Below, piece by piece: positions 1 through 63,493 of a stretch of 64,000 nt of DNA (position 1 is the first letter of the stretch; each line of letters begins with the position of its first letter). Location: assembly GCA_963575745.1 (NCBI GenBank), contig CAUYUJ010000692.1, positions 587,710 through 651,709 of the forward strand, written 5' to 3'. The notes beneath the pieces were generated by a model. It was not told the origin of the DNA and did no database searches. It worked only from the letters and a program-made list of their open reading frames with translations. The translations under genes and the position numbers were made by a program. Source of the stretch: Prorocentrum cordatum (taxonomy: Eukaryota > Sar > Dinophyceae > Prorocentrales > Prorocentraceae).

Positions 1-73
1 GGAGAGGGGAAGGGGGAACGAGGAAGGGAAGGGAAAACGGGGAAGGAGGTGCTTTTTTGTCCAGCCCCCTGAG

Positions 74-2642
74 GAGTGCACGCTTGGGCGATGACTGTGC
101 TCAGGGAGGCGGGCGTGGGGCAGGGCGAGGGCGAGGAACTGGTGTCGCGGGCTCCCCTGGACAACTTCCAGCAAATGTCTGCGCAGGCCGTGAAGAAGTG
201 GGAAGGGCTGATCACTCTCTTCACTGACTTCAATGAAGCGTGGTCCAAGTGGAGCGCAGAGAAGCTCTGGCACAAGGACAAGGAGGACAGCGAGGCCCAG
301 GCGAAGATCGCGAACATCAACCCGTTCATCACAGCGCTGAAACAATGCTTGGGGGCCTTGCCAAGGCCTGAGAAGAACCGGATTGAGCAGCAGGGCGATT
401 CCGCTGTCGTCTCGTTGGTCAAGCTGCTGCTGCAGGTCAAGGCCGAGTTCCACGCTTCCGGTGGCTGTGCGGAGGTGCTGCGCTACGCCTCGCTGCCGGG
501 GCCTGAGCTGCAGGCAGGGGCCGACGTTGAGATTCAGAATGCCACGAAGGCTTTCAGCGAACTCATCAATGATAAGCTTTCCTCTTTGGCTCTGATTCTG
601 AAAGAGCGCTTCGGCCAGAGCGAGAGCATCGAGAGGAACGAGAATTTCAAGGTCGAGCAGCTGATCTCTTGTTGGCACGAGGACTGGGGCTGGCTTGCAA
701 ATGGGGGCGATGGGGCTTTGTTTTGAAGCGCCTGATTTGTGATCTGAAATCTGTCATGTGAAAGTCATTGAAATTGAGCGGTGAGGTTTGGGAGCTATCT
801 TGCCACCTGGGCACCTGGATGGTCTTGGGGCCCTTGACCCAAAGTGCCCCCTCGACCCTGACTGACTATAGGGCGTTGGGCCATTGGGCCGCTCTGTGCC
901 CTGTATTCGTGGTGGCCCTGCCCTCCGCCAATCGATCGATCGCTGATCGGGGCATCGGTGGCCCATCGACGGCGCGAAATGGGCTGCTCGCTGGGCCGCC
1001 AATCGGCGGAAACCTGTCTGGCCAATTTCGGGCGGGGCCTAACCGACCCCTAGCAAACCGTCCCCTTCCGTGACATCATCCTCACCTTGCCATTTTTTCC
1101 CGGATTTCCCTCTGGCCGCGTGCGTCTTGGGGCGAGGGGAGGGGACGTCGCGGAAGGGGATGGTTTGCCAGGGGTCGGTCAGGTCGCCCCTGATAGTTGT
1201 ATAGTTTCTGGCCCCAGGACGGTCAATTCAACCTGTCCTGCAAGCTGGGCCAGGCTCTCTCCAAGATGGACCAGTCAAAGGAGACCACCAACATCGATGT
1301 GCCGTATGGGGCGTGCTCTGCCCTGGCCACGCTGGACCAGGAGAACAGCGAGTGGCAGGAAAAGGCGCTCCAGGGTATGCTCTGAAATCTAGCCCTGGCC
1401 AGCTGGCCCCTCGGACACAGCTGGGACATCGGGCAGGGACACTGGTCAGTGGCCAGTGGGTTGGGGGAGGAGGGTGAATGGGGGGAGCATTCCCTCTCCC
1501 TATTCTTCCCCTCCCCCTCCTCCCACCTGCCTCGAATCTCCTACTTGTCCGTGTCGCCATCAACACCCTCCTCCCATTGGCGCCGGGTGGCGGCGAAACC
1601 GGCTACTGGCTACCCAGGGCCAGGGGGAGGGGGGGATGTCGATGTCTGGGCGCTAGGCTAGGAGCTGGGCAGAGGGAGCGCCCTTTCCCCGCCCCACCAC
1701 CGCCACCAGGCTGAGGCGTTGGAGCAGAGCGCCTCAGCAGTGCCTGCCGTCTTCGCAATCTACGCCTGCCAGACCAAGTACGAGGCCTGGCTCAAGGGCG
1801 ATGCGAAGGGCTCTGCCGCTCGCCTGGATACGTGGTTGACTTCTGCAGCTTACATGGTGAAGGTGCTCAACGGTTCCACTGCCAAGTCAGATCTGGCCAC
1901 GAAGTTCAATGAGTTCCGCAAGTTCATGACCGATGCCATTGCATCCCAGATGGACGCATGTGTCCAGCACCTTACGAGTATCATTCTGAATATCAAGCAA
2001 CATGGCCCTGAACTGGACCTGAAAGATATCCTGGCAAATATTGACGACAAGATCACGATGCTCGAGGACTGGCCGGGCAGACAGGAACTCGTCCAAGATA
2101 TCAAGGGCCTGAACCATTCCGATGATTCCAGTAAGGGGGTTCAGGCATTCGACTTCCTGTCGACCTGCCTGTCTGGTATGGGCATCCAGCGCACGCAGTC
2201 CATGGAGGAGGAGGACACGTTTGCGAAGTTCAAGGATCGATGGCAGGCCACTCGGAGCCAAGGTCGGCTCATGCTGGTCTGCCGCGGGGCTGCTATGTGC
2301 ATCCGGGATGGCCAGACGGACGGAGTGGACAAGCTCAAGATGGACGCGAAAACATTGAAGGTCCAGATCCCGGCCAGGCTGATGGCTAAGTTGATGGCGA
2401 TGCAGGGCGACGAGGGCGAGCCAGCCAAGAAGAAGTCCAAGACGGATGGCAACAGCGTCATCAGCTGCGAGGACGGCAACAGTGTCATCAGTGGCGAGGG
2501 CGGCAGTGTCATGAGTGGCAGGGGCGGTAAGACGACCAATGTGAGCATTGGCGAGAGCCGCGAGGCTGACGACAGCGGCGAGGCTGTCGACGTCGGCGAC
2601 GCGGACTCTGTGATTTTGGAGGGCCCGCCTGCGAGCTCTTGA
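74..2642 (+). CDS. Three-exon protein of unknown function, 5' end probably incomplete
   Basis: Exons are read as 74-651, 1218-1373 and 1710-2642 (TGA), giving about 554 residues in one frame with both introns in phase 0. An in-frame stop at 70-72 and an AG at 72-73 suggest that 74 is a splice acceptor and that upstream exons lie outside the window; an ATG at 91 is the alternative start. I recognise no domain. The first 480 residues are mixed, amphipathic and lysine- and glutamate-rich, with no signal peptide or membrane segment. The tail carries a basic cluster (AKKKSK), a possible nuclear signal, followed by short repeats such as GNSVISGEGG and then an acidic stretch. Codon use and residue balance look genuinely coding, unlike the low-complexity frames elsewhere. 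Exon joins were inferred by frame continuity and AG/G junctions, not from transcripts. Confidence 0.7.
652..1217 (+). other. Intron 1 of the left-end gene
   Basis: The donor reads AAG/GTCGAG and the acceptor CCAG/GAC. AGG occurs at 650-652 and again at 1216-1218, so the exact cut can slide by a base without changing the protein. It contains a short CGATCGATCGATCG run near 930. Confidence 0.65.
1374..1709 (+). other. Intron 2 of the left-end gene
   Basis: The exon ends CAG/GGTATG and the next begins CCAG/GCTGAG. AGG lies at 1372-1374 and 1708-1710, so the intron is GGTATG...CCAG or GTATGC...CAGG with the same spliced product. Confidence 0.65.
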
Positions 2643-3170
2643 GATTTAGATTTATGATTTAGGTGTTTCAGTTTCAGAATTTCGGGGCAGGTCTGGCGGG
2701 CCCGGTTTCGTGGCAACTCATGGGCCATTTCACTCTGCAGACGGGCCATAAGGGATAAGATAAGAGATGGGGGATGGGACGGATGAGGAGGGGGAGGGTG
2801 GAGAAGGGAATGGAAGGGCAAGGAGTGGGGGGATAATGTAAGATGAAGAACGAATGGGAACATCGAAGATGGAATACATATGGAAGAGTAGCGAGACTGG
2901 ATGAGAGTGGAGGAGGTGATGGAAATGCGGAGGGTGGAGGTGGGAGGGGCGATGGATGAGGGATGAGGGATGTGGGATGAGGGACAGGGGATGGGAGGAC
3001 GAGCGAAGAGGGAGGGAGGAGGGGGTCCGAGCATGCAGAGCCCACACGCCTTGCCTGCCCCTGGCCTGCGTTGGGGCGCCATCCAACTGGGTGGGTTCGT
3101 TCCTGACCCCATTCCCGCACCTGCCTCTTGTACGGAGGTACACGTGGCGAGGCGCCCCGTGAAGCTGTAA
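2643..3170. other. Unassigned, purine-rich
   Basis: Downstream of the gene the plus strand is G- and A-rich with loose GGATGAGGGAT-type repetition (about 2740-3020). Open frames here are low-complexity and I see no gene. Confidence 0.5.
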
Positions 3171-3184
3171 AGGAAAGATGTATA

Positions 3185-3360
3185 AGAGGAATCGGAATAA
3201 GGAGGAGGAGAAGGAGGAGGAGGCGGAGGAGGAGGACGAGGCTAAGGAGGAGGAGGAGGAGGAAGTGGAGCAGGAGGAGGAGGGAGGAGGAGGAGGAGGA
3301 GGAGGAGCAGGAGTCCAGGAGGAGGAGGAGGAGAAGAAGGGCAGCAGCAGGCCGCAGGAT
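3185..3360 (+). repeat. (GGA)n microsatellite
   Basis: An imperfect GGA/GAG tract on the plus strand. Apparent Glu- or Ser/Leu-rich proteins across it are translations of the repeat. Confidence 0.9.
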
Positions 3361-3365
3361 CCACA

Positions 3366-4009
3366 CAGAAGATCGCTCGTTCTTAGAATGGAAAAATTGA
3401 AGGAGAGCGCCTCCCTTCGGCCCATCCTCCCCTTCCTTGGGTGCCCGTTCCCTCCCTGGACTCCCGTTTCTGTCCTCTCAGTCCTGTTTGTCCTCTGTCG
3501 CCTTTCGCATTGCGCTCCTCTTTGGCGCGGCGGGGGGGGGAGTTGAGACATCGGCAGTTGGCATTCAGTTTTTGTGGGTGGGGGTCATCGTCGCCAGGGC
3601 AGGACTCAGCTCCGGGACATCTGTGCATCTGGCCACTGGGGGCGGCCCAAGGACCAATTTCGAGAGTTTGAGTTTTGAGCTGCCTCCGTTGTCTCAACAC
3701 GCCCTGCCCCCATCCTCCCTGGCCCTTGGATCGTCAGCCGCTGGCGGGGTGGCGTTGGGCCGAACCTGACCTCCTCTTTCGCCTCTTAATCCTCCAGATC
3801 TGGAGAAGATGAGGAGGAGGAGGCGAGGGGAGGTCAGGTCAAACGTCCTCCCCTGCTGGTGGCTCACCATCCCTCGGCGCCTCTGCGGACCGGCCCGGCC
3901 GGCGGGCTGGCGGGCTGGCGGGCCGGCGGGCTGGCGGCCGGGTGAGCTGTGACGACACAGGGAAGGTTGGGATCCCCAGCGCCGCTCTCCTCCTGCCGTC
4001 CTTCTCCAC
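3366..4009. other. Unassigned GC-rich spacer
   Basis: Mostly unique sequence. A short tandem of GGCGGGCT-like 8-mers lies at about 3890-3945. No credible coding frame. Confidence 0.45.
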
Positions 4010-4290
4010 CTCTCCTCCTCCAATAGGCCCCATCGTGCGGTGCGCCGCCCGCTCCTCTCCCCCCTCCTCATCTCCTCCTCCTCTCCTGTCCTCCTCCTTC
4101 TCTCCTCCTCCTCCTCCTCCTGGAGGTCCTCCTCCTCCTCCTCCTCCTCCTCCTCCTGACTCCTCCTCCTCCTCCTCCTCCTCCTCCTCCTCCTGGCTCC
4201 TCCTTCTCCTCCTCCTCCTCCTCCTCCTCCTCGACTCTCCTCTACCCTCCCTCTCCCTCCTCCTCTCCTCCTCTTCGTTCCTCGTCCTCG
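4010..4290 (-). repeat. (TCC)n microsatellite
   Basis: A TCC/CTC tract on the plus strand, opposite in polarity to the GGA tract 650 bases earlier. Confidence 0.9.
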
Positions 4291-4339
4291 GTCGGAGAAG
4301 TGCCGAAGTGGCTCCCTCGGAGTTGTATTAGCTGTTTAG

Positions 4340-5275
4340 GAATAGCTGAGGACACTGTGCTTGGAAACGCTGTGGTAGCTGGTAGCTTGCTAGCTCAGGC
4401 TCCGATCGAAACTGCGTCAGCTGTGTAGACACGCAGCCAGAGCTGCGGAACTTGTGTGTGTGTGTGTGTGTGGAAACGCTGTGGTCACTGTTAGGCTGCA
4501 AAGAAACCCCATCATAACTGCGGATATGGGTGTGTTTGGGAACGCTGTAGTTGCTGTAGCAACGGTGTAATAACTTAGTTAGCTGCTTAGAAACTCCACT
4601 GGAGCTGTTTTGAACCGCTAGAACCGCTGTTCGGACACATACTAAAAAATAGCAGGAGTTAGCTGCTAGCTGCCAGCAAACTCCAGAAAACTGGTTTAGA
4701 CAGGATAGAGCCTCTGTTTGGAAACACAGAGTTCGCTGCTTAGGACAGCCGCGCTAGCTGTTTAAATTGCAGCCGCAGTTTACGCTAAAACCGCTGTTTG
4801 GAAACGCTGTGGTGGTTGAGTTCGCTGTTTAGAAACGCCATGCTACCTGTTTAGAAACGCTACCGTCACTGTTTGGAAACGCAGCAAACTACGTACTGGC
4901 TGTTTAAACACGCTATCATCGCTATTTGGAAATGCGAGAGTAGCTGAAGTAGCTGTTTAGAAACGCCATGATAGCCGTTTAGAAACGCGATGGCCGCTGT
5001 TTGGAAACGCTGCGTTATCTGAGCTAGCTATTTGGAAATCCATACGATCTGTTTTAAAACGCTATAGTCGCTGCTTAGAAACGCTGTAGACTCCACAATC
5101 GCTGTTTGGAGACGCCGTACCCGCTGTTTGGAAACGCGGAAGTAGCAGAGTTTGGCTGTTTAGAAACGCCGTGAAGGCTGTTTAGAAACGCTATCGTCGC
5201 TGTTTGGAAACGCTGCAGACGACATGTTAGCTGTTTAGAAACGCTACGATCGCTGTTTGGAAACGCCGTTAGTCG
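4340..5275. repeat. Satellite built on GCTGTTTGGAAACGC
   Basis: Dozens of degenerate copies of a 15-base core, GCTGTTT(A/G)GAAACGC, spaced mostly 22 to 35 bases. Cores with TTTAG and TTTGG are interspersed, often as neighbours. Linkers such as TATCGTC and AGCTAGCT recur. No reading frame survives. A (GT)n run interrupts it near 4455-4470. Confidence 0.85.
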
Positions 5276-5359
5276 GCGCCTAGTCGGCGCATCGCTGTTT
5301 CGCCGTTTGGTTTCAGCAGCGAAGCCCCGAACAGGGGGGCACAGTCTTAAAGCTCCACG

Positions 5360-5590
5360 CCCTACTTAAATTATTAGTATTATTATTAGTATTATTATTC
5401 GTATTATTATCAGTATTACTATTACGTATTATTATTATCATTGTTATTATTATTCGTATTGTTATTGCTACATGTTCTTATTGATACCATCACTATTATT
5501 CTTACTACCCATCAATATTACACTACATTGTTGATAGTATTAGCATTGTACTTTTATCCTACCTGTGAATCGTATTCTTATTAACCGATT
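5360..5590. repeat. AT-rich TATTAT-type repeat
   Basis: A strongly AT-rich island in GC-rich DNA, built from TATTATTAGTATTATTA-like units at 5367-5470 and decaying to the right. Confidence 0.75.
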
Positions 5591-6184
5591 CGTATTCGGA
5601 CCGCGCTCTCACCACGCCTAGCAGGGCTTAGCAGTGCTTAGCAAGGCTCAGCAGGCTCAGACTGTCCAGACTCACTCACACTGAGAATCCTTGCGTGCCC
5701 GCTCCTCGGGCTCTCGTATTTCTGGGCCCGCGGGTGCTAAGATAACGCGGGGGTGCGGGGCGGGGGGATACCCTGGGGCGGGCTCCCCCCTTGGAAGGCC
5801 GACGAAAGTCTACTTCTTTACGGGGGGTGTAAAAGGAATCGCATAGGAAGAGAAGGAGCAGGAGGAGGAGGAGGAAGAGCTAGGAAACAAAACGGAAACA
5901 CAGGAAAAGCAGAGTTCTGCCTGAGTTGTGGGTCAGGGACTTGAGAAGTGCCCGGGTTGTGCGTCAGACAATGGAGCAGTGCTTTGGTTGTGGGTCGGAG
6001 ACTGGAGCAGTGCCTGGGTTGTGACTGAATCCTTCTGCTCAGACTCACTCACATTCAGACTCAGTTTGTTCAGAAACATACATTCGAAACTCGTGATCTG
6101 GATTGGCATTGTGGTACTATTCAGTCGTATGACTATTATTTGTATGATCACTCTTGCTTGGCTTATCATTCGTACTGTGCTACT
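5591..6184. other. Unassigned, with first traces of the AGCAGGG repeat
   Basis: 5617-5660 already shows AGCAGGGCTTAGCAGTGCTTAGC. CAGACTCACTCACA-like motifs occur near 5660 and 6040. No gene seen. Confidence 0.45.
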
Positions 6185-11375: not shown

Positions 11376-12552
11376 TCAATGTTTCAATGAATATTGTTTG
11401 TTCAACAACTTACCCTGGTGCACCATAAATTGACTTCCAAGCTTGCAGGAATCGATGCTCACCGTCAGTCTCTGTCGGCTCGTTAAACGCTCACAACAGC
11501 CCCAAATACATGACATACTCAACAACATCCACGATCTCAATGTCGAGATCCTCCACAACAGCGATTTTGTTACGGCCACGGCCAGTTCCCACTGTGGCGT
11601 TAGTGAGGATCTTGGTCTTGTCGGGGTGAAGGAGAAGACCGACGCCTGCAGCCGCACGCCGCAAATCACTTAACATCCTTTTAAGCTGTCTGTACCAGCG
11701 TGCCTTCGATCAACAGCACGTCGTCCGCGAAACGAAGACTTGTCAATAGAGAGACCGATGTGTGACCCAATTGCAGTCTATAGCCTCCCTCTCCCGTTCC
11801 GGCTTCACGGTGCGCATCAAGTCTTCTGGCAAGGCATTGAAGAGTATAGATTTAAGAGGGTTTCTCTGTTTTGCGCAACGCGCAATGCCGAATTGTTTGC
11901 TCTCGACATCCATGCGGACGTATGATGATTGCCCAGTGTACAACTTCTGCAAGCAACAAGTATTGACCATCGGTACCCCTTTGGCGAGAGCATTCCAAAC
12001 TCCTTGGCGTTCAACCGAATCGAAAGCCTTCTGGAAGTCCGTGGCTGCGAACCATATGGGGATCTGGTATTCTCCTGTTTTTTCCTTGATCTGCTCTGCA
12101 ACATACAAGTGGTCCTCTGTGGAGAAGCCGCGTCGGAAGCCAGCTAGATCAACGCTGTGTTGAGTCTCCAGAAATTTGACAAGCCGTCTGAATAAAAGAC
12201 GTGAGAACAATTTGTATCATATTGGTACGGTTGTTATCGGCCGGTAGTTTTTCGGAAGGCGCTCGTCCCCGGATTCCAAGATTACCGCAATCACCGCCAG
12301 TTTCCATGAATTTGGAGGTTCGGCATCAATTTTACAAACATCATTACATAATTTGGCCAACGACTCCAGAAGAACGCCCCCACCATGAAAGAGCATCTCT
12401 CTAATTATGCCCTGGGTGTCAGGACATCGATTGGTATTCAATTCTTTCATGCCCTCCTTGAACTCAGCGTTCGTGAAATCTTCAACCTCTGATAACGACG
12501 TGTTTGCTTCCAGCTCCGGCGCCAGCTCTACAGTGCACTTGCTAGCATACAA
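11376..12552 (-). pseudogene. LINE reverse transcriptase, frame-broken
   Basis: 12217-12552 holds the fingers (NSWKLAVIAVI, then NYRPI). 11743-12210 holds the palm with AGFRRGFSTEDHL and TDFQKAFDSVE (aspartate motif A). 11718-11732 encodes FADDV, the catalytic motif. 11491-11676 continues with LLHPDKTKILTN and a YLG-like turn. Frames change between each block. It would copy element RNA at the nicked target. Confidence 0.88.
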
Positions 12553-12786
12553 GTCCCGTAGAAAGACGCAGATGCATTAGCCATCTCCACACGCGAAGTC
12601 ACACCTTGCTTGGGGACAGCCGCTTGTTTACAGGAGATCTCAACTTCGGTGCCTTGTCGAGGCCAGTGAACGTGTTCAAGATGGACGTGATGCGCTCGGT
12701 GGCCTTCAATTTCTTTTGTTTCTTGATCATTGTCTGGATATTCTTGCTTGGAGATCGGTGCGCGGAGGTATGTCAGCTCCTTGTTG

Positions 12787-13238
12787 TCATACTTTGTGGT
12801 CGGGGTAGACTTGATGGTCTCCAGCCGGGCCAGCCTGAGCGGCCACCCCATGTTCCGCACCATGACCAGGCAATGCACGTTCCAGCGAGTCTTGAAAGTT
12901 ATGCTTGTCAATTGTTTTCCAATCAACCAGGCAGTTGCGCAATCCAGAAGAAGGCTGTTCTCCGCCGGAGTGTTCCGCCGAATTCCAAGTGATATTGAAC
13001 ACGATCTTCACAGCCGTGTGATCCGACTTCATGCCGATATCTGGAACTGAACAGCAATCCCGCTCACATTTCCACGACGATCTATCAACAGTACTGAAGT
13101 CAATCTGCCTTTGCTGTCGTTTAGATCCCGTGTGCGTTGCTCGCCCGCTTAATGGCTTGAGGAAGCATGTGTTGCCAATAACCAGATGCTCAGCAGAAAC
13201 CCATTGCTGCAACCATTGCACCCGTGAATTGCCCCTGG
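12787..13238 (-). pseudogene. LINE endonuclease fragment (C-terminal half)
   Basis: Residues resemble the end of exonuclease-endonuclease-phosphatase domains: VIGNTCF, ATHTGSKRQQRQIDF and GMKSDHTAV, where SDH is the usual terminal catalytic histidine motif (about 13010-13030). The N-terminal catalytic half is missing. It would nick target DNA for target-primed reverse transcription; here it is only a remnant. Confidence 0.8.
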
Positions 13239-13835
13239 GGTTCTCGGTGGGGGCTGCGAATTGCAAATTTGCCGCCACTTTCGGTAGATGTTTGGGGGTC
13301 TAGCGGAGACGTTGTATTCAGATCAGATGTGGTCTCGCCGTCGTTGAGGGCTGCAAGCAACCCAACAGTCGCCCTTTTCGAGAGCCGCTGGGGGGCACAG
13401 CGGAGCGATTTATTCAACTCAGACGAGACCTCTCCGTCGCTGGGGGGGTGCGGATTGCGAAGCGGCGCCATTTTCGAGGGTTGCTGGGGGTCCAGCGGAG
13501 TGACGTCTTATCCAGATCAGATAAGACCTCGTCGTCGCTGGGGGGCTGCGACGTAAGAGGATGTCGCCACTTTCGAGGCCTGTTGAGGGTGCCGTGGAAT
13601 GAGATGACACCTTGTTGAGATCATATGAGACCTCGCCGTCATTGGGGGCTGCGAACTGCCAAACTGTCTCCATATTCGAGGGCTGCTGGGTGGTCGAGCG
13701 GAGCGACGTCTTATTCAGATCAGATGGAAGCCTCAGTGTCGTTGGGGGTGCGAACTGCGAAACTGTCGAAATGTCCTTGGGCTGGCAGGAGTGTCGGGCA
13801 GAATGACGTTTTATTCCGATCAGATGAAGCCTCGC
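13238..13835. repeat. ~100-bp minisatellite, locus 1, about six units
   Basis: Anchors GGCTGCGAA-TGC lie at about 13251, 13350, 13447, 13544, 13650 and 13746, a period of 96 to 106. Each unit also carries CCACTTTCGAGG, an AGCGGAG(C/T)GACG block and a CAGATCAGA...CCTCGCCGTC block. The period is not a fixed multiple of three, so long frames are accidental. The same family forms 24039-24425. Confidence 0.88.
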
Positions 13836-24038: not shown

Positions 24039-24425
24039 ATGAGGTACGTCCCACGCGGATCACCTCGAGACCTCGCGGTGCCCTGGGGGCTGCGATCTGC
24101 GCAAGTGTCGCTATTGTCGCAGGCTCCTGGGAGCCCCAGCGGAGGTGCGTCCCACGCGGATCACTTCGGGACCTCGCGGTGCCCTGGGGGCTGCGATCTG
24201 CGCAATTGTCGCCATTTTCGCGGGCTCCTGAGAGGCCCAGCGGAGGTACGTCCCATGCGGATTACCTCGAAACCTCGCGGTGCCTTGGGGGCTGCGATCT
24301 GCGCAACTGTCGCTACTTTCGCGGGCTCCTGGGAGGCCCAGCGGAGGTGCGTCCCACGCGGATCACCTCGGGACCTCGCCGCCCCCTGGGGGGTTTGCGA
24401 TCTGCGCAACTGTCGCCACTTTCGT
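24039..24425. repeat. ~103-bp minisatellite, locus 2, four units
   Basis: Units run GAGGT(A/G)CGTCCCACGCGGAT...GGGGGCTGCGATCTGCGCAA...TTCGCGGGCTCCTGGGAGG. Units are more alike than those at 13238-13835, with which they share the GGGGGCTGCGA and CACTTTCG blocks. Confidence 0.9.
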
Positions 24426-32607: not shown

Positions 32608-32744
32608 ATTCCCAACCATCCTGTGGTGCTGGGTCCTCGTTTTGAAGAGAGCACCCCGCGTCTCACCTCCTCCCGCTGCCCCCTCCCTCCTCCCCCTCCT
32701 CCCTCCTCCCATTCCTGCTTCTGCTCGCCGCATGTCCACCATGT

Positions 32745-33290
32745 CGGCACACCCCTTACGAGGATCGTGGCCCCATAGGGAGCCAACGAAGACCCCAGCG
32801 GCAAGGTTTGCATGCGTCCCCCCGCCCAGTTCGGCGCACCCCTCACGAGGATCGTGGCCCCATAGGGAGCTCCACCGAAGGCCCCAGCGGCAGGGTTTGC
32901 ATGCGTCTCCCCGCACATTTCGGCACACGCCTGACGAGGATCGTGGCCGCATAGGGAGCTCCACCGAAGGCCCCAGTGGCAGGGTTCGCATGCGTCCTCC
33001 CGCCCATGTCTGCACACCCATCACACGCCTCGTGGTCCCTGAGGGAGCTCCACCCACGGCCCCCGTGGCAGGGTTCGCACGCGTCCCCCCCGTACATTTC
33101 GGCACACCCCTCACACACTGCGTGGCCCCATAGGGAGCTCCGCCGAAGGCCCCAGTGGCAGGGTTCGTATGCGTCCCCCCACCCAGTTCGGCACACTCGT
33201 CACACGCTTCGTGGCCCCATAGGGAGCTTCACCGCACCCAATTCGGCACCCCTCACACGTTTCGTGGCCCCATAAGGAGGTCCACCGAAA
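32745..33290. repeat. 89-bp minisatellite, about six units
   Basis: GTGGCCCCATAGGGAG anchors lie at 32768, 32857, 32946, 33033, 33122 and 33210, a period of 87-89, then a shortened unit at 33263. Each unit reads CACCGAAGGCCCCAG(C/T)GGCAGGGTT, GCATGCGTCC, TTCGGCACACCCCTCAC. 89 is not divisible by three, so the frames it opens are not genes. Confidence 0.93.
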
Positions 33291-48828: not shown

Positions 48829-50890
48829 CGACGTCGGCTGCCGTCCGTGCTTGCGTCTCCCATAATTCAGCAATCCGAAGAGGGCGAAGTAGGGGAAACG
48901 CAACCACGAACGACAGCCCCAAGGGCACACTGCGCGGGAAACGCGTTTCCAATAATTCGGATTCCGATTTAGGGAAACGCAATTTCCTTCGAACAAACGC
49001 ACTCGATGGGGTGGAATTGCGTTTCCCATAATTCGAATTCCGAATTCTGGAAAACGCGATTTCCCAGAATTCGAATTCCGAATTATGGGAGACGCAATGT
49101 CCTTTGAAAAACCGCACTCAATGGGCTGGAATTGCGCTTCCCATAATTCCGAATTGCGGGAAACGCAACTTCCTTTGATAAACCGTACTCGATGGGCTGG
49201 AATTGCGTTTCCCACAATTTGAATTGCGAAGTTCGGGAAACGCGGTTTCCCAGAATTCGAATTCCGAATTGTGGGAAATGCAATTGATTTTTGGACAACC
49301 GCATTCAATGGGCCGGAATTGGGTTTCCCAGAATGCCGAATTATGGGAAACGCAACTTCCGTTGAAAAACGGCACTCAATGGGCTGGAATTGCGTGTCCC
49401 ATAATTTGAATTCCGAATTTTGGGGGAACCCGGTTCACTAGAAATCGAATTCCAAATCATGGGAAACGCAATTTTCATTGAGAAACATTATTCAATTGGC
49501 CGGAATTGCGTTTTACATAATTCGGAATTATGGGAAACGCAATTTCCGTTGAAAAACCGCACCTAATGGGCTGGAATTACGTGTCCCATAATTCGAATTC
49601 CGACTTTCGGGAAACGCGGTTTCCCAGAATTCGAAATCCGTTTATGGGAAAAACGCACATCGCATTCAGTGGGCTGGAATTGCGTTTCTCAAAATGCCGA
49701 GTTATGGGACACGCAATTTCTTTTGACAAAAACGCATCAATGGGCTTGATTTTGTTTCCCAGAATTTGAGTTCCGAATTTCGGGACACGTGGTTTCCCAG
49801 AATTCAAATTCCAAATTATGCGACACGCAATGTCCCTTCCAAAAACCACACTCGATGGGCCGGAATTTCGTTTCCCATACCTTCGAATTATAGGAAACAC
49901 AATTTCTTTTGAAAAATAACGCACTCGATGGGCTGGAATTGCGTTTCCCCTAATTCGGAATTCGAATTCTGGGAAGCGCAGTTTCCCAAAATACGAATTC
50001 CGAATTATGGCAAGCGCAATTTCTTTGAAACGCAGCACTCAATTGGCTGGAATTGCGTTTCGCATAATTCGGAATTATGGGAAACACAATTTCCTGTGGA
50101 AAAAACCGCACTCGATGGGCTGGACCTGCGTTTCCCATGATTTGAATTCAGAATTTCGTGAAGCGCAGTTTCCCAGATCTCAAATTCCGAATTCTTTGAT
50201 ACGCAATTTCTTTTGAAAAACCGCACTCGCTGGGACGGAATTGCGTTTCCCATATTGGGAATTTGAATTTCGAGACGCGCGGTTTCCCAGAATTTGAATT
50301 TCGAATTATAGGACATGCAATGAAAACTGTTTCGTTGGGCTGGAATTGCGTTTCCCATATTTTCGAATTAAGGGAAACGCGATTTCTGTTGACAATCCGC
50401 ACTCGATGGGCTTGAATTGCGTTTCCTCTAGTTGGAATTCAGAGTTTCCGGAAACGCTGTTTCCAAGAATTCAAATTCCGAATTGTGGGAAACGCAATTT
50501 CTTTTGAACAACCACACTCGTTGGAATGGAATTGCGTTTCCCCTGCTTCGGAATTATGGGAAACGCATTTTCCTTTGAAAAACGATACCCAATGGGCCAA
50601 CATTCCGTTTCCCATAATTCGAACTCCGAAATTCGCGAACGCGGTTTCCCAGAAATTGAATTCCGCATTATGGGAAACGCAATTTCTTGTGAAACAACAG
50701 CACTGAATGGGCTGGAATTGCGTTTCCCATAATTCGGAATTTGAATTCTGGAGCACGCGATTTCCCAGAGTTCGAATTCCGAAGTCTGGGATACGCAATT
50801 TCTTTTGAAATTCTGCACTCGATGGGCCGGAATTGCGTTTCCCATAATTCCGAAAAGTTGGAAACGCAATTTCTTTTGAAAAACCGCACT

Positions 50891-51810
50891 GCAGGTCAAG
50901 GTTAAGCCTGCATGCCCGCGAAGGGGCGGCCGCTTAGGGCACAGGCGGGTGAAAACTAGTAGACGCTCATGTGGTGAAGAAAATCCCCTGTCATACAATT
51001 CCAAGAATGTGGGTCTTTGGCTCCTACTCTCCAGTCGCCGATCCTGTACTTGTCGCAGAAACACTGGACATCAGATTCCCACGTCTTCCGCGGCCTCCCT
51101 TGGGACCTGTTCCGGCAGGTGACCATGAAAGAACGCGCGACAGCCATCTGTCGGCAGGCAGGTTGGCGACGTACCCGGCGAAGTTCGAGCATTTGCGAAG
51201 CAATGCTTCCGATCAGAATTTGGCCCGAGTGCCTTGCAACTTGTCCGTGACACGCTCGTGCCACACGTGCAATATCTCATGCCATGGGCGGGTCCAGTCG
51301 ACCCCGCCTGGCGGCCCGACAACGTGTCGAAGAAGCTTGCGACGCGCAGCGTCCAGCTTTTCCCTTTCGGCTGCATAGACCACGCGGTGAGCAGAACCAA
51401 ACATGGCAATCGGGGTGATGACGGCATGGAAGTAGCTCAAGCGCAGCTCAACCGGCACATGCTTCGCTGCGAAGATCCACCGGTTCGCGAAGAAAGCCTT
51501 TGTAGCAGCTTGAGGATGGTATTCCTGGTCCTGGTTCGAAACGTCGGTCGACAGAATGCATCCTAACCATTCGTGAGAGTTCGTACGTTTGATATACACC
51601 GGAGGGGAGCAAGAGTTTGTCCGGCGGTTGCGCCTCGGTCGTCAGGGCTACAGTTTTGTCGGCGTTCAGCATCAGGTCAACTGCGGCGAGCCCCTCAACC
51701 AGCGACGTCAGACGAGTCGCGGCCTCTTTTTGCGATTTCGAGAAAAGTAATATGTCGTCAGGAAATTGTACATCCAATAGTCGCCGTAACACGTCGACGT
51801 TTCAGCCGAG
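50891..51810 (-). mobile_element. 5'-truncated LINE inserted in the satellite
   Basis: About 920 bases. The satellite spacer is cut after CCGCACT (50890) and resumes CTCAATGGGCTGG at 51811, so only about two bases (CT) are shared. The minus strand encodes the reverse-transcriptase catalytic region to the C-terminus in three broken frames. It is not a copy of the LINE at 10960-13238 as far as the protein text shows. Confidence 0.9.
50956..51792 (-). pseudogene. LINE reverse transcriptase 3' half
   Basis: VQFPDDILLFSKS (51743-51775) is the catalytic motif with Ala changed to Pro. LMLNADKTVAL and EWLGCILS follow, then ANRWIF...LRLSYFHAVITP. The tail SQGRPRKTWESDVQCF and DWRVGAKDPHSWN ends at a stop near 50956. 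Frames change near 51590 and 51250. The fingers and endonuclease were never inserted. Inactive. Confidence 0.85.
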
Positions 51811-53154
51811 CTCAATGGGCTGGAATTGCGTTTTGCATAATTCGGAGTTCGAGCTACGGGAAACGCAATTTCCTGCGACAAAAAACCGCGCTCAATGGGC
51901 CAGAATTGCGCTTCCCATAATTCCTAATTAAGGGACACGCAGTTTCTTTCGAAAAGCGGCACTCAACGGGCTGGCATTGCGTTTCCCATAACTCAGAATT
52001 CGAATTTGGGGAATTGCGGTTTCCCAGAATTCGAATTCCGAATTATGGGCAACGCAGCGTCCCTTTGCAAAACCCGCACTCAATAGGCCGGAATTGCGTT
52101 TCCCACACTTCCAAATCATGGGAAACGTTTTTTCTTTTGAAAAACCGCACTCGGTTGGCTGGAATTGCGTTTCCCATACTCCGGAATTTTAATTTTGGGA
52201 AGCGCGGTTTCCCAGAATTCGAATTCTTAATTATGGGAGGCGCAATTTCTTTTGAACAGCCGCGCTCAATGTGCCGGAATTGCGTCTCCGATAATTCCGA
52301 ATTGTTGGAAACGCGATTTCTTTCGAAGAACGGCACTCGATGGGCTCGGAAGTCAAATTCTGGGAAATGCGGTTTCCCATAGTTCGAATTTCGACTTATG
52401 GGGCACGTTATTTCCCGTGGGAAAACCGCACTCGATGGGCCGGAATTGCGTTTCCCATAATTTACATTTTTGGGGGAATTGCAATTTCAGATGACCAAAA
52501 AAGGCGTTCGCTGGGCTGGAGTTGCGTTTCCCGTGGTTCCGAAGTCGAATTATGGGAAACGCTTTTTCCGGGATTTCGAATTCCGAATCATGGGACACGC
52601 AATTTCCATAGAAAAAATTGCTTCAATTTGCCGGAATTGCGTTTCCTATTTTTCCGAATTATGGGAAAGGCAATTTCCGTTGAAAAATCATTCGGGCTAT
52701 AATTGCGTTTCCCAGCATTCAAAATTCGAATTGTGGGAAACGGGGTTTTCCGGAATCTGACATCTGAATTATGGGAAACGGAATGTTCTTTTGAACAACC
52801 GCATTCTATGGGCCAGAATTCGCGTTTCCCATAATTCCGAATTATGGGAAACGCATTTTTCAGCAACGGCACTCAATGGGCTGGAATTGTGTTTCCCATA
52901 TTTCGGAGTTTGAATTTTGGGAAAGGCGGTTTCTTAGAATTCGAAATCTGAATTATGGGACATGCCTTTTTTTCAGAACACGCCGCACTTTATTAGCCCG
53001 AACTGCGTTTCTCGTAATTTCGAATTTTGGGAAGCTCTTTTCCTTTTGAAAAAGCAGCACTCGGTGGGCCGGAATTGCGTTTCCAAGAATTCGAATTCTG
53101 GGAAACGCGGTTTCCCAGAATTTAAATTCCTATAATGCCGAATAGTGGGAAACG

Positions 53155-53250
53155 CATTTTTTCTGTTTCTCTCTCTCTCTCTCCCTTTCTCTCTCTTTCT
53201 CTCTCTCTCTCTGTCTCTGTTTATATATATATATACATATATATATAGAA
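53155..53250. repeat. (CT)n-(TA)n composite inside a satellite unit
   Basis: Replaces the spacer of one long unit, so the spacing from 53071 to 53269 is 198 instead of 115. Confidence 0.9.
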
Positions 53251-54010
53251 AATACATTTAATGGGCTGGAATTGCGTCTCCCATAATTGCGATTTGGAAC
53301 GATGGGAAGCGCAATTTCTTTTTTTTTGAAAGACCGCACCCAATGGGCCGCAATTCGGTTTCCCATGATTCCGAATCATGGGAGACGCATTTTTTCGACA
53401 AGCTGTATTCACTTGGCTAGAATTGCGTTTCCCATCGTTCAGATTTCGAATTCAGAGGAACGCGGTTTCCCAGAATTTGACTTCCGAACTATGGGAAGCG
53501 CAATTGCTTTTGAGAAGCCGCATTCGATTGGCCGGAACTGCGTTTCCCATAATTCCGAAGTCTGGGAAACGCAATTTTCTTTGAACAGCGGCACTCGACG
53601 GGCTGGCATTGCGTTTCCCATATTTCGGAATTTCAATTCTGGGTAACCGCGTTTCCCAGAATTCGAATTCCGAATTATGGGAAACGCAATGTCTTTTGAA
53701 AGACCGCGCTCAATGGGCTAGAATTGCGCTTCCCACACTTCCGAATTATGGGAAGCGCACCCCCCCTCCCAGAAAAAAACATTGCACTCGATGGGCTGGA
53801 ACTGCGTTTTCCACAATTCGGAGTTCGATTTCCGGGAACATGCGTTTCCCGAAATTCGGAATTCGAAAATGCAATTCCAGCCCATCGAGTGCGGTTTTTC
53901 AATGGAAATTGCTTTGCCATAATTCGAAATTCGAATGATGGGAAAACGCGTTTCCAGTGCAATATGTAATTGGAGCAGTCGTCCGGAATTGCGTTTTCTA
54001 TCATTTGTAT

Positions 54011-59741: not shown

Positions 59742-60672
59742 ATGGGAAGCCCCCGCGGCCTGCTGGGAAGGCCCCGGCCTGCTTCGGTGGCACTTCATGG
59801 GGGCCTGGTATACCCTCTGAATTGCGTCTTCAGCGTCCTTTAGCGTCGATCAGCGTCAGGAGTCAATGAGATAGCGCCGAGTGAGCATCGGCTAGCGTCG
59901 ATTAGCGTCGATTTAGCGTCGACCCCCTCCGCCTTCCCGAGGGTCGCCTCTCCCCCCCCCCTGGAGCCGCCCTCCTGTGCGGGCCGCCGGAGAGGAGGGC
60001 GCCCGAGCCGTGTGGGCGGCCGAGGTGCCTGGGCGCCAGCAGCTGGGCGCTGGCCCTGGGGCTCCTCGACGAGGCGGTCCCTCCTTCATCCTCGCCGTAC
60101 CAGTCTCCGTCCTCATCGCCATACCATTCGCCATACCAGTCTCCCTCCTCGCCATGCCAGTCTCCCCCCTGCCTCTCCTTGCCTCTCCCTCCCCTTTTCC
60201 TCCTCCTCGTCCTCCCGGACTCCCCCTCGCCTGCCCAGTCAGTCCCCTCGTCCTCCAAGTCACTCCCTCCTCTTCCCCCCCCGCCTCGTCCTCCTAGTCT
60301 CTCTCTCCTCTCTTCCTCTTTCCTCCACCGCCTCCCTCGTCTCTTCCCCTCTCCTCCCTTCCTGCTCGGCGCCCCGCGCAGATGCCGCGACACGCGGTGG
60401 AGCCAGACTGGAGCACGTCCAGCAGGCGGAAGCGGCGGGGTGGGGGGCAATGGCAGGGGAAGGGGCAATTGGAGGAGGAGGGAAGGTGCCCCGGCGGCCA
60501 AACTCCCCCCCTCCCCCCCTCGAAGGGGACAGAATGCCATGCACATATATTGTCGTAGATCTGTGCGGACTTCTGGGATCTGCGCTGGGGCTGGGCCCCC
60601 CCCCCTGCGACGCCGCCGGAGCGCGCCAGGGAGGGGGTTCCAGCTCGGAGGGCCAAGTCTACCTGTTTCTGG
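59742..60672. other. Unassigned, C/T-rich; target region of the retrogene
   Basis: 59820-59930 repeats AGCGTCGAT(T/C). 60060-60385 is pyrimidine-rich on the plus strand. The long frame that runs into the retrogene from 60179 is the retrogene frame extended by chance through low-complexity DNA. Confidence 0.5.
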
Positions 60673-60691
60673 ACGACCAATCTGCCAATTG
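60673..60691. repeat. Target-site duplication, left copy
   Basis: 19 bases, identical to 62861-62879. Confidence 0.93.
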
Positions 60692-60698
60692 GCTCAAG
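60689..60698 (+). other. Spliced-leader relict
   Basis: TTGGCTCAAG equals the last ten bases of the 22-base dinoflagellate spliced leader. The first 12 bases are missing, as after incomplete reverse transcription. A 56-base 5' untranslated region follows to the ATG. Confidence 0.85.
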
Positions 60699-60754
60699 GG
60701 CCCCTTCAAAGACCCGGGCGCCCGCGTGCGGCCACTCCGCTGCCGGCGCCAGCC

Positions 60755-62593
60755 ATGTCGGACGTGGACGAGCAGACCAGGAAGCTGCTCGAGGAGAGCG
60801 TGCAGGCGATCTCGCGCCTGCCGGCTGGGCACCCCGAGGGAGGCTTGTCCGCGTTCAAGAGCCTGGCGACGGGGATCAACAGGGCGAAGAAGGGCGACAC
60901 GCGGAGGCTCCTGGACCCGCTGGAGCCCAAGGCCCCCGTGCTGGTCTTCCTGGTGGACCTGCAGGAGAAGAAGAGGCTGTACGCCAAGCAAGTGGGCAGC
61001 GTCTTCGAGGCCCTGGTGCACGTGGACTCCTGGCGGCTGGCCGTCCGGCTTAACGAGCCGCTGCTCAACCGCCTCCCCGCGGAGCTCCGAGAGGCCCTGG
61101 ACGCGGTCCCCACCCCGCCGCCGCCGCCGCCCGCGGCCGAGCCGCCCCCGCCCTCGCCTGCGGCCGCGGCCCCGCCCGCGCTGCAGGCGGGTTCGGCGGC
61201 CGCGGCCGCGCCCGCGCTGGCGGCGCCGCCGCGCGGCGCCGCGCCGACGCCGACGTCCCCGGGCGCTGCGCCGGTGCCGACGGCCAGCGCCGTGAACCTT
61301 GCGGTGGCGCACGCGCTGGAGCGCATGGGCGGCAGCGACGGCGGGGTCGACGGCTCGCCCCGCGCGCTGCCGGCCGCCGCGTGCGCCCCGGGCTCGGCGG
61401 CCGTGCAGGGGAGCGCCTCGTACCACCTGACGCTCTTCTCGGAGGCCACCGAGAGGATGGCGGGCCTGGGCTACAGCGCGGCGGCCGACGTCGACGAGGC
61501 GATGGTGGCCTTCGAGAAGCTCTACACGGCCGTGAGCAAGATCACGCGCAGCGCTTCCACGGAGGACGACGAGGCTCTGGATCGGTTCGAGCCGAAGGGC
61601 GAGCTTCTGCGGTTTTTGGACGACTTCGAGGAGCGCAGGCGCCTGCACCGCGCCCGCGTGGAGTCCGTTCGGAGCAAGCTGAGGGAGTTCGAGGGCTGGA
61701 GGGCCCTCATGGTGCCCTCGCCCGCGGCCAGGGCGGCGCCGCCGCCCTCGTCCGCGGAGCTGCTCCGAGCGGCCCTCGCGGAGGCGGCCGCCCAGAGGGC
61801 GGCCGGCGTGCTGCAGGTGCGCGTCATCGCCGCCTACGGCCGGCCCGGGAAGAACAACTACGCCTGCCTCTGCGTGGCGGGCCGGGAGGACCAGACGACG
61901 CACACCGTGAGGGGCAGCAGCGACCCGCGATGGGATGCCGACGCCATGTTCGCGAGCGTCCCGTCGGCGTCGTCCGCCGCGAGCATCGAGATCAGGGACC
62001 CCGACCTCACGGGCCCGCCCGCGAGCGTGCTGCCGCTGGACGTGCGGCAGCTGCCGCTGGGCCCGGGGCGCCAGAAGATGCGCGGCGCGGGCGGCGAGCT
62101 GGAGGTCGAGGTCGCGTTCAAGCCGGTGGAGGGCTTTCGGCCGCCGCCGCGCACCCCGTGGGACGACGGGCCGGCGCCCGCGCCAGTGCCCGCCGCACGG
62201 CCGCCTGCGCCCGTGGCGGCGCGCTGGGTCTGGTGGCTCACGGTGGACCCGCACCACGGGCACCCGAAGCCGTACCCGCTGGAGATTGCCGGGAGACTGG
62301 AGAGAGCCTATCAGCAGAGGGAGGACTCGCTGGACCTCGGGGCGGACTTCTGGGGGGCGGAGGTCCACTTCCGGCCGCGGCTCGTGCAGAAGACCACGAA
62401 GGGCACCCGGGACGTGGGTCGGGTCGAGCTCGGCAGCGCGGACGCGACGGTCGCCGTCTTCGTGGTGAAGCACGCGGACCCGAAGGTCGGGTGGCGCAGC
62501 GCGGAGGAGGGGGCCGAGGGCGCGGAGAGGCGGACGCTGAGGGAGGCGGACGTGATGCCCAACGCGCTGAGCCTGTCTTCCGTGCCCCTGTGA
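60755..62593 (+). CDS. 612-residue protein: duplicated N-terminal module, C2-like and WWE-like domains
   Basis: Start chosen at ATG 60755 because it lies 56 bases after the spliced-leader relict; the frame upstream is low-complexity DNA outside the insertion. Residues 33-97 and 252-320 are a diverged duplication: AF-x2-L, a central EPK-x3-L-x-FL-D motif, then K/R-R-L-x-8-V-x-S-V and a final W-R. A Pro/Ala-rich linker (about 115-190) separates them. Residues 352-457 resemble a C2 domain (LQVRVIAAYG, SSDPRWDADAMF) but few calcium-binding aspartates are visible, so calcium-independent lipid or protein contact is more likely. Residues 489-570 resemble a WWE domain (WVWW, then PYPLEIAGRLERAYQQRE and GTRDVGRVEL), known elsewhere to bind ADP-ribose chains or ubiquitin-system partners. 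No signal peptide or membrane helix. The frame is intact, so the copy is young or selected. Confidence 0.85.
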   Translation: MSDVDEQTRKLLEESVQAISRLPAGHPEGGLSAFKSLATGINRAKKGDTRRLLDPLEPKAPVLVFLVDLQEKKRLYAKQVGSVFEALVHVDSWRLAVRLNEPLLNRLPAELREALDAVPTPPPPPPAAEPPPPSPAAAAPPALQAGSAAAAAPALAAPPRGAAPTPTSPGAAPVPTASAVNLAVAHALERMGGSDGGVDGSPRALPAAACAPGSAAVQGSASYHLTLFSEATERMAGLGYSAAADVDEAMVAFEKLYTAVSKITRSASTEDDEALDRFEPKGELLRFLDDFEERRRLHRARVESVRSKLREFEGWRALMVPSPAARAAPPPSSAELLRAALAEAAAQRAAGVLQVRVIAAYGRPGKNNYACLCVAGREDQTTHTVRGSSDPRWDADAMFASVPSASSAASIEIRDPDLTGPPASVLPLDVRQLPLGPGRQKMRGAGGELEVEVAFKPVEGFRPPPRTPWDDGPAPAPVPAARPPAPVAARWVWWLTVDPHHGHPKPYPLEIAGRLERAYQQREDSLDLGADFWGAEVHFRPRLVQKTTKGTRDVGRVELGSADATVAVFVVKHADPKVGWRSAEEGAEGAERRTLREADVMPNALSLSSVPL

Positions 62594-62861
62594 CCGCCGG
62601 CGGCCTCCCCCAGAGGAGGAGGCTGGCGCGGCGCCTGAGGTGCGAATCGAAGAAGACACGACGGCATGAACAGATGCACTTTCGAAGCCCCGCCTCTGAC
62701 AGTTTACGCTCATGCCTTTCTCTGTGCCTCTAGCACTGACGTCTCCAGTACAGTTGATCAGACGGCGGCGGCCCTGTCTTGAGAGGAGGCGCGTGGCACT
62801 GGTAATTCCACGTCCGTCACAGGTTGGGATTCGCCGTCGGCCAGGTCCAATAAAAAAAAAA
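62594..62861 (+). other. Retrogene 3' untranslated region and A tail
   Basis: 258 bases after the TGA, then A10 at 62852-62861 (the last A overlaps the duplication). No AATAAA signal, usual for dinoflagellates. Confidence 0.8.
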
Positions 62862-62879
62862 CGACCAATCTGCCAATTG
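62861..62879. repeat. Target-site duplication, right copy
   Basis: Directly abuts the A tail. Confidence 0.93.
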
Positions 62880-63493
62880 CCTCTCTCATTGTCTAGCCAC
62901 AAGCGTCTGTAAAAACATTCGGGGTGGATTCGTCTACAGACACGTTCGGGTCCTGTATTTGCGGTGAGCGAGCATAAGCTGCACGACTGTTGCGCTCCCT
63001 CGGGGGAAAGGAAGTACGGTTCAGGTGATGCGGCCAACAACTTATGTTGAGCACAGCAGAAGGAAGGGCTCATCCTGATCCTCCTCTCTCGCTCTCTCAA
63101 AGCCGTGGCGCGGCTATCCCTCTCCACCGCCCGCGGCGCCGCCCCACGCGCGGCCGCGGGACCCATACCGCGGCGGTGCCGCCGCACGCCGGCGAAGGGA
63201 GGTTCCGACGAGGGGAGGAGCAGAGGGAGGACCGCGCACAGTCACAATATCTTAAAACGTGGAGGCAGGGGGGAAGGCACGGGTTGAGCGGCGGGGCCAC
63301 TCAAGGGATGTGTCGTCGCGGTTGCGGATGACGTTGTATTTTACCTGTAGGGATGTGCATGGCGTATTCCGTTGGTGGCGCTGTAGACGAGGTAGCGTAC
63401 TAGAGGTAAGCAGACTGGGTTGAGACAATCACGTAGTTGTACCCGGAGCAGTCTGGCTTAAGGTTGACCGATTTTGTTTTTGTTATCGTGAGG
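62880..63493. other. Unassigned
   Basis: Original host DNA to the right of the insertion, continuing the C/T-rich style at first (CCTCTCTCATTG). No gene recognised. Confidence 0.45.

Follow-up and report, generated by a model that had tools for sequence, protein, structure and literature searches.

The window analysed here, a 64,000-nucleotide stretch of the Prorocentrum cordatum genome with a G+C content of ~60%, corresponds to positions 587710-651709 of contig C692 in the assembly. It carries a segment, 60692-62860, in which a long open reading frame lies between a remnant of the spliced leader and an A tail, and which is bounded by two copies of a 19-base word (Table 1). Elsewhere in the window there is a broken LINE that matches P0008 and P0010-P0012 and does not match L063, an intact LINE located on another contig (E 1e-4); an endonuclease-like frame upstream of this remnant was seen by eye. 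A large array of a ~187-bp, AT-richer repeat with divergent copies occupies 48939-53759, and shorter tandem repeats were found at 24041-24424 (101 bp unit, 88% matches) and 32739-33287 (89 bp unit, 82% matches).

Table 1. Features of the insert, of the remaining window and of leader-tagged loci on other contigs (window positions unless a contig is named)
Feature	Location	Strand	Remarks
LINE remnant (broken), reverse-transcriptase remnant	11440-13278	-	RVT_1 E 7.4e-6, below curated cut-off
Target-site duplication, 5′ copy	60673..60691	+	last three bases TTG common with leader suffix
5′-truncated spliced-leader remnant TTGGCTCAAG	60689..60698	+	absent from parent gene
5′ untranslated region of copied mRNA	60699..60754	+	matches parent exon 1, C16920:43230-43121 minus
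612-codon open reading frame, ATG 60755 to TGA	60755..62593	+	weak C2 and WWE-like matches
Stretch without match to assembled parent	60807..60973	+	100-N gap C16920:41642-41741 between neighbouring parent exons
18-bp in-frame difference	61154..61155	+	parent longer; in GC-rich repeat
3′ untranslated region	62594..62851	+	parent identical
A10 tail	62852..62861	+	parent only AAAA then G; last A may belong to duplication
Target-site duplication, 3′ copy	62861..62879	+	exact match to 5′ copy; word unique to both junctions
L063, full-length LINE	C1:620900-628900, positions 41-5751		starts with complete 21-nt leader
L068, second clean retrogene (putative)	C3:694100-700200, leader C3:700086-700066	-	full 21-nt leader, A6, duplication
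L069, leader-tagged 1.5-kb insert	C16:28200-34300		497-aa frame, ACAT microsatellite

The word ACGACCAATCTGCCAATTG is present on both sides of the insert with zero mismatches between the copies. Shuffled sequence gave 0 matches to it with up to 3 mismatches permitted, and in the whole assembly (4,128,499,153 bases, 21,875 contigs) it occurs twice only, at the two insert junctions, the backward-read control having 0 occurrences in the same 4.13 Gb. A chance repeat, or the common dispersed word named as an alternative by the original prediction, is therefore ruled out. The leader suffix overlaps the duplication by three bases (TTG) and the tail overlaps it by one A, so that the duplication is 15-19 bp long and the leader remnant 7-10 nt. 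The predicted 19-base repeat is thus exact, but the perfect 19-bp duplication read from it becomes one of 15-19 bp. The flank to the right of the 3′ copy reads CCTCTCTC, and the uninterrupted site would be a single 19-mer followed by CCTCTCTC. Likeness of this empty site to the leader beyond TTG scored at background, with 635 of 1,279 window 50-mers equally high.

A-runs of at least 7 in the window (7 on the forward strand, 10 on the reverse) were also scanned for a following 11-base word with a second occurrence no more than 15 kb upstream. The retrocopy gave the longest repeat (19 nt); the two others, of 14 and 15 nt, map to the 48.9-53.8 kb repeat array or next to it, and no second retrocopy was found among the A-runs scanned in the window.

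When the insert was searched as DNA against the whole assembly, 47 matches were obtained: the insert itself, 16 exon matches of a parent gene and 30 others. The 30 others, at 68-82% identity, fall in the GC-rich part of the frame in 29 cases and elsewhere in one, and were set aside. The exon matches are 91-100% identical, and 97-100% barring two, one of 91% that contains the 18-bp indel and one of 95% that runs into an intron. They are collinear, nine on contig C16920 (minus strand, 43230 to 4217) and seven on C2350 (minus strand, 88156 to 68467). Because the matches on the two contigs are consecutive (window 62129/62125) and the gene exits C16920 near the contig start (4.2 kb) and enters C2350 2.6 kb from its end at 90766, both parts would belong to one gene, pieced from two contigs, of which 167 bases are unassembled. 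The intron-bearing parent, for which the original prediction had proposed a search, is therefore present in the same assembly. The ends of successive exon matches overlap by 2-10 bases in 12 of 14 cases, by 28 in one and by 0 in one. Such overlaps may represent short direct repeats at splice sites, as expected of introner-type intron gain, and in part aligner run-on.

The leader suffix TTGGCTCAAG has its sole exact copy in the window at the 5′ junction, and at least one exact copy arose in 15 of 100 shuffles, so it is weak if taken alone. Comparison with the parent is more informative. The parent reads ...GTGTGTCCC AG/GGCCCC, with TCCC before the AG, where the copy reads ...TTGGCTCAAG/GGCCCC; over the longer interval the parent has ...ATTTGTGTGTCCC AG/GGCCCCTTC and the copy ...CCAATTGGCTCAAG/GGCCCCTTC (slashes mark the junction). 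The parent thus has a plain AG acceptor without the leader suffix, and the leader was spliced on at this AG. At the 3′ end, the parent has AATAAAAG in the place of A10 and the copy AATAAAAAAAAAA; when aligned, the parent continues as ...CCAATAAAAGTGCATC and the copy as ...CCAATAAAAAAAAAA, followed by the duplicated word. Since AAAA then G in the parent corresponds to A10 in the copy, five or six A are untemplated. Both the leader relict and the A10 of the original prediction are therefore borne out, and because the parent has neither the suffix nor an A tail, both ends of the insert were added after transcription.

Over 1,992 compared bases, the copy differs from the parent by 9 substitutions (0.45%) and one 18-bp in-frame indel, the substitution at 61148, beside the indel, depending on the alignment. 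Differences at 61323, 61410, 61458-61478 (four), 61818, 62127, 62225 and 62487 were set aside as aligner run-on into introns, as the words concerned are matched without difference by the neighbouring exon. Two substitutions fall in the 5′ untranslated region, seven in the frame and none in the 3′ untranslated region. Six of the seven coding substitutions are nonsynonymous against 73% expected without selection, a comparison of few changes in which those of copy and parent are indistinguishable. Frozen RNA edits as the source of the differences gave no signal (parent to copy, A to G in 2/9 and T to C in 1/9).

The predicted frame is uninterrupted from ATG to TGA and has a coding signature, G+C being 74% at the first codon position, 56% at the second and 95% at the third. 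A random substitution in it would create a stop in just 2.2-2.5% of cases, and so few changes have occurred that an open frame is expected at the present age. The intact 612 codons make the copy a candidate, and only a candidate, for a functional retrogene. No family or structure above the curated cut-off was found for the 612-aa product. A C2 domain match (E 0.002) and a WWE-like end (E 0.11) lie below cut-off, the structure match was to a C2-containing chain (E 0.11), and three unrelated families scored E 0.06-0.12. There were no protein relatives at E 0.001 among the 8,000 scored candidates that had the largest number of words in common with it, nor among 1,250 candidates for residues 1-118. 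An 842-aa open frame runs antisense to the retrocopy (60659-63187, minus strand) and probably arises from the high G+C of the latter at third codon positions.

The segment at 60692-62860 is almost certainly a processed retrocopy of a multi-exon dinoflagellate nuclear gene, apparently placed by a LINE-type insertion. Its source was a trans-spliced, spliced and polyadenylated mRNA, because the introns are gone, the leader is joined at the parent's AG, the tail includes untemplated A and the 15-19-bp flanking repeat is unique; the shortness of the leader remnant (7-10 nt) and the incomplete parent, pieced from two contigs, count against full certainty. The original prediction of a recent event stands: recency is supported by the 0.45% divergence from the parent, and not by the undecayed 19-bp duplication, which is too weak for dating as it bounds divergence only to less than ~15%.

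That the copy is simply an intronless gene, or a duplicate made at the DNA level, lying between chance repeats is scarcely credible here. Introns occur in 83.7% of P. cordatum gene models and ~16% are without (PMC10666404, as far as the text available goes), but the insert has an intron-bearing parent at 0.45% divergence that lacks the A tail and leader suffix, and the 19-mer pair is unique. As a DNA duplicate would retain introns and flanks, the parent in effect refutes this reading. The insert is 1.1 kb from the end of C692 (651,709 bases), and RNA- or cDNA-derived sequence might have been joined into the contig during assembly. Such an artefact is nevertheless very improbable, as a misassembly is hardly expected to yield a 19-base duplication of the flank, or the 9 substitutions and 18-bp indel that separate the copy from the only parent found. 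The extent of the duplication can also be read differently. An extended word matches at 22 of 23 bases, which would make the duplication 23 bp with one mutated base and reduce the leader remnant to AAG. This requires one specific substitution that recreates the exact 10-nt leader suffix, and A60696 is in neither parent nor target; the exact suffix is the simpler reading, and a 23-bp duplication is considered unlikely.

A duplication, an A tail and 5′ truncation with microhomology are the typical traces that a LINE-type enzyme leaves in target-primed reverse transcription. As the copy combines a duplication and an A tail with a truncated 5′ end that overlaps the target by three bases, target-primed reverse transcription is the most likely route of insertion. 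Transfer of the same retrocopy by an LTR-retrotransposon or another reverse transcriptase fits poorly with the A tail at the 3′ junction, with a duplication of 15-19 bp and not 4-6, and with the 5′ truncation with microhomology, and is quite improbable, even if LTR and non-LTR elements are both reported to be abundant in dinoflagellates (PMC12014239, in the part available).

Under target-primed reverse transcription, a LINE-type reverse transcriptase/endonuclease would nick the bottom strand at the left end of the 19-base word, priming would occur on the poly(A) tail through no more than one complementary base, copying of the mRNA would stop 12 (up to 15) bases short of its 5′ end, and the cDNA would be joined to the second nick via the shared TTG. 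The nick lies in the context TCGT/CCAG and so departs from TTTT/AA, the T-rich consensus of L1, which speaks against an L1-like site. The TTTT/AA nick is a feature of L1, and other LINE clades have other contexts. The LINE-type machinery of the original prediction is upheld in kind, by the duplication, A tail and 5′ truncation and by an intact LINE in the genome, but not as to the particular enzyme: L063 lies in a microsatellite without poly(A), unlike the window insert, and the window's own LINE remnant is broken. The L063 type need not be the kind behind the window insert and looks like another type. As AG/GG is kept at the leader junction, a new leader could be spliced at the same place if the locus were transcribed from the left, and on such re-trans-splicing the relict would vanish from the mRNA.

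Exact full-length copies of the 21-nt leader number 14,218 in the whole assembly (7,201 + 7,017; control 0). Those followed by G (3,686) may include leader-RNA genes, but in 10,532 (5,295 + 5,237) the next base is not G and these are therefore not ordinary leader-RNA genes. The first 30 such places in contig order, a non-random sample, were read for up to 1.5 kb per side (L033 shorter), with one read for 8 kb and six for ~6 kb downstream. A period-3 tract (identity at least 0.6 at lag 3) is present in the 45 bases before the leader in 23/30 loci versus 233/4,264 window positions, and the stricter words CCTCCTCCT or GGAGGAGGA lie within 15 bases in 14/30 versus 1,848/63,985. Genome-wide, CCTCCTCCT precedes 1,843 of the 7,017 minus-strand leaders by 6 bases or fewer, and GGAGGAGGA precedes 670; these counts hold one match per site. 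On the plus strand (3,913 and 1,032), a site can contribute several overlapping matches, and those figures were not used. The base preceding CCGTAG is T in 27 loci, A in 2 and G in 1, in agreement with the D position (U, A or G) of the 22-nt dinoflagellate leader, DCCGUAGCCAUUUUGGCUCAAG (PMC2606063, text available in part). ATG directly follows the leader in 9/30 loci. An exact second relict, CCATTTTGGCTCAAG, follows it in four (L035, L040, L044 and L045), which suggests that these may have passed through two rounds of trans-splicing and retroposition. By a different method, 496 and 244 leader sequences were reported for two Symbiodinium genomes (PMC8045281, in the portion available).

Of the seven loci that lack a period-3 tract, six, all without a TCC/GGA tract, are those read for ~6 kb downstream; the seventh, L037, was omitted as its downstream sequence resembles L047. 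L068 appears to be a second retrogene of anatomy like that of the window copy. It has a 382-codon frame (382 aa, WD40-like by eye), a duplication of 15-17 bp and a parent on contig C13789 with four exon matches (94-99%) over 26 kb. The alignment to the parent ends at the fourth A, so that the untemplated tail is seen for two A of the A6. Control 15-nt words recurred within 6 kb in 124 of 2,215 cases at five of these loci, so that length by itself does not establish the L068 duplication, which is supported by its position where the parent alignment ends. The 3′ flank of L068 lies inside a dispersed repeat of ~70 bp. L069 has an 18-base repeat at both ends, without an A tail. No exact duplication of at least 10 bases was found within ~6 kb at the other four leader loci, where older or longer inserts would escape. 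When 17 loci (277,946 bases counting both strands) were scanned for runs of at least A8 accompanied by a 14-nt repeat upstream, a single repeat word was detected, in L025 and L063, and no leader goes with it.

In L063, a (TCC)n tract precedes the complete leader, which is followed by an uninterrupted frame of 1,869 codons; a short tail then leads into (TCC)n once more, with no poly(A). Residues 432-689 of the frame match Exo_endo_phos (E 1.4e-8) and residues 1030-1236 match RVT_1 (E 1.2e-15). A second open frame, 86-1300, overlaps its first part and is likelier to be ORF1, though it had no Pfam match. Its leader implies that the L063 RNA would have been trans-spliced. Within 1.5 kb downstream of the leader, similarity to LINE-encoded protein was found in 6/30 loci (L036, which is L063 itself, L038, L040, L046, L055 and L059), a 49-residue match in L039 (E 5e-4) being left uncounted, and there are DNA similarity ties in L033, L052 and L056. 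Judged from these sequences, at least some LINEs were reverse-transcribed from RNA that carried the leader; to regard most leader sites as LINEs is an extrapolation. A wider scheme, in which retroposition runs on trans-spliced, leader-starting, TCC/GGA-targeted LINEs and host mRNAs are copied as by-catch, is tentative and is put a little short of an even chance. Under this scheme, thousands of full-length LINEs would begin with a complete leader and gain a new one in each cycle, an APE-type endonuclease would target them to TCC/GGA microsatellites, the first leader bases (TCC) would pair with the target at the 5′ junction, and the terminal AG of the leader would act as the next acceptor. Host mRNAs with the same leader would be copied by the LINE or a sister machinery, as in the window.

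No duplications at dinoflagellate retrogenes or leader-tagged LINEs are described in the available text of PMC6050394, PMC12014239, PMC3229502, PMC11453091, PMC7245778, PMC10235124, PMC8045281, PMC3942190 and PMC10666404; the subscription literature lies mostly outside this set and novelty is unproven. Neither PMC6050394 nor PMC12014239 contains the terms 'target site' or 'direct repeat', and 'target site' is likewise absent from PMC10235124. Topical literature on dinoflagellate target site duplication and retrotransposition, as far as available, includes PMC7789003 (Amoebophrya) and PMC9860276 (introners). The integration step was left open in the available part of PMC12014239 ('retroviruses cannot be ruled out'), and Symbiodiniaceae LINEs are described in that of PMC8045281 as remnants of an ancient expansion. 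The TTT(G) of the leader was proposed as a carried-along promoter (PMC6050394, text available in part). The window copy has no TTTT run and keeps only TTGG, and, if expressed, would be a test case against that model. Dinoflagellate mRNA recycling was inferred previously, in the sources as available, from leader relicts; here a recent event in the lineage is seen. With both junctions, untemplated ends and an interrupted parent in one assembly, the integration scar is directly visible and points to LINE-type priming. The 14,218 leader sequences, with 10,532 not of the leader-RNA-gene type, make the process countable within a single genome. The leader-tagged LINEs, which may be new to the literature, are a larger lead than the window copy.

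Mammalian LINE-1 processed pseudogenes and retrogenes are characterized by intron loss, an A tail, a 7-20-bp duplication and 5′ microhomology. The window copy shares all of these, its duplication falling in the same range, but differs in that its nick is not TTTT/AA and a trans-spliced leader is present at the 5′ end. Dinoflagellate retrogenes carrying spliced-leader relicts were reportedly described by Slamovits and Keeling in 2008, and the window copy is an unusually complete case of this known class. Those retrogenes (as cited in PMC6050394 and PMC3229502) and the DinoRL retrogenes (PMC12014239) are, in the parts available, likewise processed mRNAs reintegrated with the leader at the 5′ end. 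Those cases were identified from the relict, either within transcripts or ahead of gene models, whereas the window copy shows both junctions and the parent. Among Symbiodiniaceae endogenous RNA-virus genes, leader relicts lie within 500 bp of 6/26 RdRp frames, and LINE-mediated retroposition was similarly inferred from these nearby relicts (PMC10235124, portion available). That case involves viral RNA and is old and fragmented, whereas the window insert is a recent copy of a host mRNA with both junctions. L063 resembles target-specific microsatellite LINEs as a non-LTR element in a microsatellite, but those elements have a restriction-like endonuclease (PMC4640811, in the text available) and L063 has Exo_endo_phos and a complete leader at its start. 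LINE-type elements of trypanosomatids give unspliced transcripts, according to the available part of PMC8190864, whereas L063 begins with a complete spliced leader.
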